From Gemmatimonadota bacterium (GTDB lineage Bacteria > Gemmatimonadota > Gemmatimonadetes > Longimicrobiales > Gaopeijiaceae), in the NCBI GenBank assembly GCA_007126575.1, contig SLBA01000045.1, positions 1 to 56,341 on the forward strand: DNA of 56,341 bases, given 5' to 3'. The position numbers and the translations under genes were made by a program. Positions 777 through 2,933 of the stretch are shown piece by piece (the stretch's first letter is position 1; each line of letters starts with the position of its first letter). The notes below the pieces were generated by a model, which did not search any database, was not told the DNA's origin, and worked only from the letters and a program-made list of their open reading frames with translations.

Positions 777-823
777 GAGTGCGCCGCCTTGGAATCGAAC
801 CAAGAACCTACTGATTAAGAGTC
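777..823. repeat. Left copy of 47-bp direct repeat: tRNA-Lys 3' fragment (att-like site)
   Basis: These 47 bases are identical to 2858-2904. They include the discriminator base, the 3' acceptor strand, T-arm, variable loop, anticodon loop and the first two bases of the 5' anticodon stem of tRNA-Lys on the minus strand. Identity stops abruptly at 824, so no D-arm or 5' acceptor strand remains and this copy cannot make a tRNA. An intact tRNA at one end and a 3' tRNA fragment at the other is the standard footprint of an element integrated by site-specific recombination into a tRNA gene. Confidence 0.9.
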
Positions 824-1003
824 CAACCGGCGGGTAAACGGGAGCGGGGACTCCGACTCTCACGAACCGTTGCGGCCGTTGGGGTTCGGGCAGATCTACA
901 CCTACTGAGTACATGGGTTCTCGTAGGCCGTATTGCGCGCTTCTCACCCCAAGACCTACCCCACAACCTACCCCAGCGGGGGGGCTCGATCCAAGGCCGC
1001 CCT
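824..1003. other. Non-coding stretch inside the left end of the island
   Basis: No supported gene. It contains the short repeat GACCTACCCCAC (953-964) followed directly by AACCTACCCCA (965-975). The frames that stay open here read through the tRNA fragment and look like chance open frames of GC-rich DNA. I could not recognise an integrase C-terminus in any frame. Confidence 0.4.
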
Positions 1004-1885
1004 CTACCCGCCGCTCCGGGCGGCTTCGAGGGGTGCCAAGACCAGCTCACGGATCGTCCTAACGACCTCCGGGAAGCTCGCCGGGGCGCTTCCGGCCCCG
1101 TTGCTCCCCTTCAGGAACGCGCGCCAGCGCGCGCCGCGCTCGGGGTCGCTGGCGAACGCCTGCGAGAGGCCGGCCGGCTCCTCGGCGGGGATCGCAGTAC
1201 CCCGGCGCTGGAAGGTTTCGGCGAGCTGACGGGTCAGGCTGGCATCTTCGATGGTCACCTCCGTGGCCAGAACGTAGAGATCGAAGTAGTCCTTGAGGCG
1301 CGTGTTGAGCACGTCGAAGCGAACCATGGCTTCGATCTTCTCCGCAACCACCGCTTCGACGGGATAGACGGTAAGCTCCGGCGCCGGTAGGTCGAGGAGT
1401 GTCGGAAGCTCCGTCCTCGCCGGTGGATCGACGACGATGTCGCCGAACCCAATGTCCACCTGACACGGGATGCGCGCGTTCCCGAGGTGCGCAACGACCC
1501 GAACTCGCACCCCTGGATACGCGGCGCCCTCCCTCATCTCCACAACCTGCAGCTCGTCGTCGAACTCGATCCCGTCGGGCTCGACCGGCGAGGCGAGAAC
1601 TTCCCGGAACACCTCTTCCATCGCCGAGGGGCTGGCGTTCCCGAATCCGAGGAGGTCGAGGTCTCGCGTCACCCGCCGCTCCAGGTCCCAGACGTAGAAC
1701 AGCCACGCGCCCTTGAGGACGAGCCGCTCCGCATGAGGGGAGCGCGACAGGCGATAGAGGAGGCGCTCCGTCGCGAACCGAACAAGAACCACGTTGAAGT
1801 TCGCGTCCGACTGCTTCGCCAGGCTCAGCAGACGTGCGTGCACGGAAGCGGGAAGGTTCGACGGCTGCCGCCTCGCCGCACTCAC
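1004..1885 (-). CDS. abiEii: AbiEii family nucleotidyltransferase toxin (type IV toxin-antitoxin)
   Basis: Toxin component of a type IV toxin-antitoxin and phage abortive-infection system. Family members are DNA polymerase beta-like nucleotidyltransferases acting in the cytoplasm. The 293-aa product has the expected motifs: KGA at residues 58-60, RDLDLLGFG with the D-x-D pair at about 75-77, and downstream EKIEAM followed by RLKDYFDLY. The start is GTG at 1885, whose GTGA overlaps the antitoxin stop at 1884-1882, as in coupled abiE pairs. An upstream in-frame ATG at 1984 would put about 100 bases of the antitoxin in a second frame and is unlikely. Substrate specificity cannot be seen from sequence. 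Confidence 0.88.
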   Translation of the reverse strand: MSAARRQPSNLPASVHARLLSLAKQSDANFNVVLVRFATERLLYRLSRSPHAERLVLKGAWLFYVWDLERRVTRDLDLLGFGNASPSAMEEVFREVLASPVEPDGIEFDDELQVVEMREGAAYPGVRVRVVAHLGNARIPCQVDIGFGDIVVDPPARTELPTLLDLPAPELTVYPVEAVVAEKIEAMVRFDVLNTRLKDYFDLYVLATEVTIEDASLTRQLAETFQRRGTAIPAEEPAGLSQAFASDPERGARWRAFLKGSNGAGSAPASFPEVVRTIRELVLAPLEAARSGG

Positions 1886-2487
1886 GAGATGATCGCTTCG
1901 AGATAGGGACGCATGACCTTCTCCACACGGCAGACCTTCGCGAAACGCAGCAGATCCTCCATGGTGACGAGCCGCCTCGACCACGCGTCGCGGAGGGCTT
2001 CGACCGCGACGTCCACGCCCACCTTGTTCCGGAACTTGAAGAGGTCGGCGATCGTCTTCGCGGGGCTGTAGACTCTCACCTTCACGCCTTCCACGGTGTG
2101 CGTCTCAACGCCTTCCGTGAAGGCATCGCCCGAGAACCAGACGATCCGAAGGGGGACTGCCGATACCCTGGGACGCTTCGAGTGGGCGCGGAGCGCCAGC
2201 CACACCTCGTGCGGCATCTGCGTTCCGATCTCGTGGAAGGAGAGCGCCGAGAGCAGACAGACGACACCCCTCGGAACGAGCTTGGCCGCCTCCGCATAGG
2301 TGTGCTTCTCGGTGACCGCAGCGTCCGGATGGCGGAAGAGGCCGGGTGCGACCTGCTCCACTTCTCCCTGGTCACGAAGGCGGTAGAGCACCGCGGTCGG
2401 AAGCCCCGCCTTCTCCAAGTCCCTCGGCCGCACGAGCCCGCATCGCCGAACCATCCTCCGGACCCGCTCCGTCGGTCCGTGCTTCAT
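1882..2487 (-). CDS. abiEi: AbiEi family antitoxin / transcriptional regulator
   Basis: Antitoxin of the AbiE pair, 201 aa. The N-terminal about 60 residues (RPRDLEKAGLPTAVLYRLRDQG, then APGLFRHP; shown here in pieces) form the winged-helix 'type IV antitoxin' domain that binds the operator. The C-terminal part (VRVYSPAKTIADLFKFRN) is the usual AbiEi antitoxin domain. ATG at 2487 is chosen because GGGAGG lies just upstream; the frame is open to 2709, but that extension is low-complexity and crosses the operator. In this family AbiEi represses its own promoter by binding inverted repeats, and the large palindrome at 2497-2546 fits that role. It overlaps the toxin by 4 bases (GTGA). Confidence 0.88.
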   Translation of the reverse strand: MKHGPTERVRRMVRRCGLVRPRDLEKAGLPTAVLYRLRDQGEVEQVAPGLFRHPDAAVTEKHTYAEAAKLVPRGVVCLLSALSFHEIGTQMPHEVWLALRAHSKRPRVSAVPLRIVWFSGDAFTEGVETHTVEGVKVRVYSPAKTIADLFKFRNKVGVDVAVEALRDAWSRRLVTMEDLLRFAKVCRVEKVMRPYLEAIIS

Positions 2488-2496
2488 GCTCGCCTC

Positions 2497-2546
2497 CCGT
2501 TGTGATACGTAGTTGTTTATCAACTTATAACTACTTTTCACAACGG
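2497..2546. promoter_or_regulatory. 50-bp interrupted palindrome, probable AbiEi operator/promoter
   Basis: Arms CCGTTGTGA (2497-2505) and TCACAACGG (2538-2546) are perfect reverse complements. A second nested pair GTAGTT (2509-2514) and AACTAC (2529-2534) shares exactly the same centre (2521.5). A smaller repeat AGTTG-TTTAT-CAACT lies at 2511-2525. The block is strikingly AT-rich and ends 10 bases before the antitoxin start. Read toward abiEi, TTGTGA and TAAACA lie at roughly promoter spacing. Confidence 0.75.
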
Positions 2547-2587
2547 ACAATGTCACCATTGCTCCCCGACTCGTCGATGTAGAGCAT
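2531..2587 (-). pseudogene. Remnant of a DUF3800-like gene N-terminus
   Basis: ATG at 2587 opens an 18-codon frame, MLYIDESGSNGDIVRCEK, ending in TAG at 2531. MLYIDESG is the hallmark start of DUF3800 proteins, a family often found in mobile and defence-associated DNA. Nothing resembling the rest of the family follows. The frame ends inside the abiE operator, so the gene seems to have been cut when the abiE unit joined it. It could also be chance. Confidence 0.4.
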
Positions 2588-2857
2588 GTGGGTCGGCTTG
2601 CTCGGGCTAGAGCCCGCACTCTGGGCGTCCAGCAGCCGGCGAGCCACGAGAAGGATCGAGACGAGGTGATCACCACCGCGTCGGAGACGGTCAGGGCCAT
2701 CCGCCGCACACTCGCTGATCGCGTCGATGAAGAGTCAGCGGTACGGCGGGAATCCGACGGTCCTCGGGACGCCGACCTACCCCACCCACCTTAGGCAAAC
2801 CGGGGCAGGCCTGGGGAAAAGTGACCGCACAAGCCCTTCTGTCGCAATCACTTGGAA
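2588..2857. other. Non-coding stretch between abiE control region and tRNA-Lys
   Basis: No gene is supported. On the minus strand a frame running into the DUF3800-like remnant is broken by a stop near 2740. It contains the second GACCTACCCCAC copy (2774-2785) and the element end just before the tRNA repeat. It probably holds decayed island sequence. Confidence 0.4.
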
Positions 2858-2904
2858 GAGTGCGCCGCCTTGGAATCGAACCAAGAACCTACTGATTAAG
2901 AGTC
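2858..2904. repeat. Right copy of 47-bp direct repeat (inside intact tRNA-Lys)
   Basis: Identical to 777-823. It covers the 3' part of tRNA-Lys from three bases beyond the discriminator to the second base of the 5' anticodon stem. Here the tRNA continues intact to 2933. Confidence 0.9.
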
Positions 2905-2933
2905 AGTTGCTCTGCCAATTGAGCTAGCGGCGC
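2861..2933 (-). tRNA. tRNA-Lys (anticodon CTT)
   Basis: The minus strand folds as a full 73-nt cloverleaf: acceptor GCGCCGC/GCGGCGC, D-stem GCTC/GAGC, anticodon stem ACTGA/TCAGT with loop CTCTTAA (anticodon CTT), T-stem CTTGG/CCAAG with loop TTCGATT, and discriminator A. No CCA is encoded. Its 3' half is the integration target duplicated at 777-823. Confidence 0.97.

Follow-up and report, generated by a model that had tools for sequence, protein, structure and literature searches.

We describe a unit of about 2 kb, inserted at an intact tRNA-Lys(CTT) gene in a draft genome of the phylum Gemmatimonadota, in which two copies of the 3' part of the tRNA gene enclose an abiEi/abiEii toxin-antitoxin operon and no integrase. 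To judge from its sequence, it is quite probably a non-autonomous, att-flanked island unit set in the 3' half of the tRNA gene, and itself probably lies within a larger tandem accretion. It may best be classed as a remnant resembling cis-mobilizable elements, of a known kind but in a very small form. The window, meaning the whole 56,341-nucleotide stretch that was analysed, is the entire contig C132 of draft genome G000 (205 contigs, 3.68 Mb, 96.5% complete).

Results

Architecture of the unit

A repeat scan of the window revealed an exact 47-bp direct repeat at 777-823 and 2858-2904, with a spacing of 2,081 bp. The chance of such an exact match is far too small for it to be fortuitous. These two copies are the only ones in the G000 genome, where the next-best match is the tRNA-Lys(TTT) gene (C98:582-637, 84%). 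The features of the unit and of its surroundings are listed below.

1-776, no strand: accessory left flank, GC about 58% against 65-70% further right
2-409, plus: C-terminal end of a large protein in the left flank, no significant Pfam family
439-756, plus: ORF of 106 aa in the left flank, no significant Pfam family
777-823, minus: distal att copy, the 3' part of tRNA-Lys(CTT) from the anticodon loop to 2 bp beyond the gene end; exact repeat, also in G001
824-1003, no strand: distal end of the unit, 180 bp, non-coding and conserved, 87% over 178 bp to G001:C47:5990-6167
954-963, plus: candidate arm-type site copy 1, the repeated word ACCTACCCCA
966-975, plus: candidate arm-type site copy 2, the repeated word ACCTACCCCA, at 12-bp spacing from copy 1
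1004-1885, minus: abiEii, nucleotidyltransferase toxin, 293 aa, GTG start (PADLOC AbiEii 1.6e-97, PF08843 2.5e-43)
1882-2487, minus: abiEi, antitoxin and repressor, 201 aa, ATG start (PADLOC AbiEi 3.3e-81, PF13338)
2497-2546, no strand: abiE operator/promoter, inverted repeat CCGTTGTGATACGTAGTT / AACTACTTTTCACAACGG, arms 89% complementary
2547-2834, no strand: proximal end of the unit, non-coding, no homologue found
2775-2784, plus: candidate arm-type site copy 3, the repeated word ACCTACCCCA
2835-2857, no strand: stretch abutting the tRNA att, 18 of 22 positions identical to the left side of the G001 att
2858-2904, minus: proximal att copy, inside the intact tRNA gene; exact repeat
2860-2933, minus: intact tRNA-Lys(CTT) (ARAGORN; Rfam RF00005, 71.5 bits)

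Apart from the intact operon and its operator palindrome, the att copies enclose only the non-coding ends, about 550 bp in all. A preliminary description of this DNA, made from the letters alone, had reported the 47-bp repeats and the intact right-hand tRNA-Lys(CTT), and the repeat scan, ARAGORN and Rfam bear out both its coordinates and its wording. It had also named abiEi and abiEii as the only cargo between the repeats; PADLOC and Pfam agree, both genes being full length and no other intact gene being present. Besides abiE, the Pfam and ORF search of 777-2857 returned no ORF with a family match and no conjugation or transfer genes. Two minor signals were set aside. A minus-strand frame of 66 aa within 2488-2763, noted at 2533-2763 and ending MLYIDESGSNGDIVRCEK, looked by eye like the start of a DUF3800 protein cut at the abiE promoter, and has no Pfam match; an Rfam plastid-ycf2 match antisense to the tRNA gene falls under its cut-off and was taken as chance.

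The two abiE genes overlap by 4 bp, and AbiEii keeps the catalytic D-x-D and KDYFDLY motifs. Compared with the relative at locus L086 of genome G038, dN/dS is 0.21 for abiEi and 0.26 for abiEii, and therefore both genes have been under purifying selection since the split from that relative: the operon is intact and was maintained by selection in the past. The outer halves of the operator inverted repeat are retained in the L086 relative. In Streptococcus agalactiae, AbiEi binds such inverted repeats and represses its own operon (PMC3985639). With AbiEi and AbiEii encoded in one overlapping operon and operator inverted repeats upstream of it, the locus can be assigned on predicted features to the type IV toxin-antitoxin system AbiE.

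The 56-kb window contains three copies of the 10-mer ACCTACCCCA, each of them inside the unit and near one of its two ends. The 56 kb would be expected to hold 0.03 copies, and three copies were seen in 0 of 100 shuffles, a post hoc probability that overstates the surprise since the word was picked by scanning shared words. The arm-type sites of tyrosine integrases typically take the form of short repeats close to either end of an element. The ACCTACCCCA repeats are placed as such sites would be, and we regard them as candidate arm sites; the word is absent from the fetched locus of every other genome. The unit ends are non-coding as far as visible, over 824-1003 (180 bp) and 2547-2857 (311 bp). 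Among 154 genomes the distal end 824-1003 is carried by G000 and G001 only, and the proximal end 2547-2834 has no match in the genus or in the fetched loci.

Comparison with congeners and the left border

The preliminary description had proposed that the tRNA-Lys(CTT) locus be compared in relatives, and this comparison uncovered polymorphism, with occupied sites, empty sites and sites with other cargo in the congeners and in the family. In the congener G001, the same 47-bp fragment (C47:5942-5988, 96%, two substitutions) is joined to a distal end like that of the window, with homology that begins at the att and ends at the abiEii stop codon. Beyond this end G001:C47 has more than 18 kb of accessory DNA, including a TPR protein, GGACT and a large kinase/AAA protein, which has no counterpart in G000 or G002 and in which no integrase was detected. 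Across the G001 att, the 22 bp of its left side agree at 18 positions with the window bases left of 2858, and at 8 with those left of the distal att. The G001 junction thus reads as a proximal-end-like sequence, an att and a distal end, as would be expected of a tandem array or of an excised attP circle, though the likeness left of the att (18/22) could instead be native flank.

At this site the second congener, G002, has neither the repeat nor abiE; its plain tRNA-Lys(CTT) gene is followed at once by genes for a propeller protein, DoxX and a metalloprotease. The metalloprotease is found on other contigs in G000 (C172) and G001 (C24). These two contigs, at the end of locus L110 and the start of locus L111 respectively, break at the same HNH-like sequence, short of the tRNA. 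This shared break beside the metalloprotease block probably marks where the island region ends on its far side. A histidine-kinase gene of G001:C47, G000:C121 and G002:C24 was considered as a synteny anchor and given up, since each of the three genomes has different genes beside it.

The window begins at the first base of the contig, so that just 776 bp exist left of the distal att. This flank is absent by DNA from both G001 and G002, and position 777 is therefore not usable as a chromosomal border. The protein ending at 409 is sporadic, being found in 6 of 154 genomes of the order, and is 47% identical to two G000 paralogues that sit in long ORFs. Given the absence of the flank from the congeners and the sporadic distribution of its protein, the island region probably continues beyond 777 to the left, with the 2-kb unit as the probable member nearest the tRNA in a larger accretion. 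The ends of G000:C172 and G000:C121 have no assembly overlap with the start of the window. The earlier view of a complete 2.1-kb element with chromosome on its left is not supported: 1-776 is accessory, and the genes that flank the tRNA in G002 are on C172 in G000.

The same tRNA gene in the family

Extra half copies of tRNA-Lys are present in G114, G007, G021, G074 and G081. In G114, on an 871-kb contig, 1,006 bp devoid of integrase separate a half copy from the intact tRNA (L180:7550-8676, G114:C12:202550-203676); they hold one membrane-protein-like ORF of 133 aa and, close to the distal end, three GGCACAC repeats. On G007:C8 (L045:8636-10109), a creatininase-family gene (PF02633) lies between two half copies with a spacing of 1,382 bp, again with no integrase, and the last 218 bp of this unit are 91% identical to the sequence directly after tRNA-Lys in the congener G103. 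Several unrelated classes of sequence occur just past tRNA-Lys among close genomes. Taken together, the half copies, the varied cargo and the unrelated flanks indicate that the tRNA-Lys(CTT) site is a hot spot at which integrase-less units of 1-2 kb recur. It had been suggested that the site could be a standard slot for defence cassettes. The comparison does not support this, since elsewhere the site is taken by a creatininase gene, by a small membrane protein or by an island that bears an integrase, and abiE was not found at tRNA-Lys(CTT) in any other family genome compared.

Partial tRNAs on G011:C241 and G015:C34 were rejected as second att copies, their contig ends being continuous or redundant with the contig that carries the full tRNA. 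On G032:C29 (L079:6436-6491) the intact tRNA-Lys gene has a second, degenerate copy 4 kb away. On G021:C32 (L043:3537-3613), the tRNA-Lys called by ARAGORN is a half copy fused to unrelated sequence, that is, a false tRNA derived from an att remnant.

Search for an integrase

The unit had been described as att-flanked and integrase-less, and both parts stand: the two copies are present and no integrase matches anywhere in the 56-kb window, where an HMM built from the integrases of the family found no remnant at E<=10. Autonomous tRNA islands have their own integrase beside the tRNA. Such an integrase is lacking in the unit and present at the same tRNA in G007, where a tyrosine integrase lies flush against tRNA-Lys(CTT), starting about 100 bp from it (L069:13451-14548). 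Relatives of this integrase adjoin tRNA-Arg, Ala, Gly, Met, Pro, Leu and Val genes in other genomes, and the type is absent from G000, G001 and G002.

A genome-wide profile search of G000 for tyrosine recombinases returned three PF00589 proteins only. The one on C142 was rejected as the cognate integrase, as its relatives in several other genera mark it as core-like; we infer that the other two are Xer-like, as they score like recombinases of nearly every genome searched. Thus no cognate tyrosine integrase was detected in G000, and among 154 genomes no integrase-bearing element was found with the ends seen in the window. The draft is fragmented, in 205 contigs and 96.5% complete, and an integrase could therefore be missing from the assembly.

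Origin of the operon

The closest relative of this abiE operon, on G038:C449 (L086), belongs to another family of the order and is 87% identical in DNA over 1004-2544 only; no tRNA is nearby within that locus. In the acyl-CoA dehydrogenase region the match between G038 and G000 is far weaker than that of abiE, and a core gene is 75% identical in relatives from the family of G038. A match of 87% limited to 1004-2544 in another family indicates that only abiE and its operator passed between lineages. Viral contigs yielded no relative of AbiEii or of the left flank, and three tRNA-like matches among them are not tRNA-Lys(CTT).

Discussion

Formation and fate of the unit

We propose that a tyrosine-integrase element recombined its attP with the 3' half of the tRNA gene, which would have left an intact tRNA on one side and the 47-bp fragment on the other. 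Later the integrase and the rest of the element may have been deleted, or the cargo swapped, leaving the att sites, the arm sites and abiEi/abiEii. AbiEi would repress the operon from the palindrome and neutralise AbiEii, so that a cell losing the unit would be left with residual toxin, and retention would be favoured; phage defence would be a second possible benefit. The integrase of an incoming element that recognises the same sites could still excise the unit or carry it along. The deletion history, the addiction and the possible mobilisation are all inferred.

This best explanation includes two sub-readings, whose confidences overlap with its own and of which the first ranks higher. According to the first, the unit is a decayed, immobile remnant in which the att copies are fossil and abiE is by now an ordinary chromosomal toxin-antitoxin or defence locus. 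We regard it as a serious possibility that stops somewhat short of being probable. It is consistent with the failure to detect a cognate integrase in G000 or G001, with the confinement of the distal end to the genus, and with the G001 distal att, which already has two substitutions. In G000, however, all 47 bp of the two att copies still agree and the arm repeats are undamaged; this suggests a unit that is young or maintained.

The second sub-reading sees a minimal cassette mobilised in trans, one of the recombinase-less att/arm units that co-resident integrases would repeatedly move in the manner of MITEs. Such movement would fit the three units, of 1.0, 1.4 and 2.0 kb, that occupy this tRNA in as many genera and differ in cargo and ends; it would also fit the composition of the G001 junction, which is that of an attP circle or a tandem junction. 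Yet no helper integrase was found in G000 or G001, none with these ends was detected in 154 genomes, and there is no copy of the abiE unit elsewhere; we hold this sub-reading to be rather unlikely. A broader version, more speculative still, would make tRNA-Lys(CTT) in this family a landing site for recombinase-less cassettes of 1-2 kb that passing islands shuffle in trans by means of their integrases. Such cassettes would form a MITE-like layer of tRNA islands in which, here, a toxin-antitoxin system would secure its own retention.

Outside the favoured explanation of an att-flanked island unit, a local duplication of the tRNA 3' half by replication slippage or repair, with no integrase involved, would account for a gene copy that is only partial, and would be compatible with a left flank cut off by the contig end. 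It is nevertheless very improbable, as G001 shares the fragment and the 180-bp conserved non-coding end yet has other cargo, and duplicates of this half of the gene accompany unrelated contents in several other genera. The repeat sequence is a place where contigs break in relatives (G001:C74, G007, G015), as a misjoin at the 47-bp repeat would have it, but G001 independently shows the att with the distal end and G114 has the same layout within its 871-kb contig, so that an assembly artefact is likewise very improbable.

Relation to known systems

Elements of the CIME type related to ICESt1 of Streptococcus thermophilus are flanked by attL and attR, lack integration and transfer genes, and lie at a site of tandem accretion (PMC5704250). 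The unit likewise has both att copies, arm-like sites at both ends and no integration or transfer genes; it differs in being far smaller (2 kb), and no parent ICE or IME with the same ends was found. In S. agalactiae, a composite island at tRNA-Lys comprises IME_Sag2603_tRNAlys beside a decayed ICE (PMC5704250). Both cases have decayed and other elements in tandem in the tRNA-Lys 3' end, but the units of the S. agalactiae island encode integrases and the abiE unit encodes none. CALIN and MITE are non-autonomous units moved by the recombinase or transposase of another element (PMC11389934). They resemble the present unit in being flanked by sites and in having no recombinase of their own, whereas here the sites are a tRNA-derived att and integrase arm-like repeats, and not attC or transposon ends.

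The interest of the unit lies in a very small and well-delimited att-TA-att arrangement, in a phylum whose mobile elements have been little studied. Three integrase-less units of 1-2 kb are now seen at one tRNA in three genera, and the small size and the two parallel units are what is most worth following. Movement of such units in trans would allow single operons for defence or stabilisation to pass from genome to genome with no recombinase of their own; if the units do not move, they would show a toxin-antitoxin system as the possible last survivor of island decay.

Type IV AbiE systems have been described on mobile elements, namely ICESa2603rplL of S. agalactiae and pNP40 of L. lactis, and stabilised a plasmid in tests (PMC3985639). 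The present operon, of predicted function, shares with them the bicistronic organisation, the operator inverted repeats and the presence on mobile elements; unlike them, it is in no autonomous element, and its motif I is KGA instead of GG/GS. A further AbiEi/AbiEii pair was observed on a 5.8-kb delta-proteobacterial contig (L087:67-3739), where a tRNA-Cys has a tyrosine integrase 0.3 kb from it, followed by a J-domain-like protein and the pair; here AbiE seems to be carried by a small tRNA island that is autonomous.
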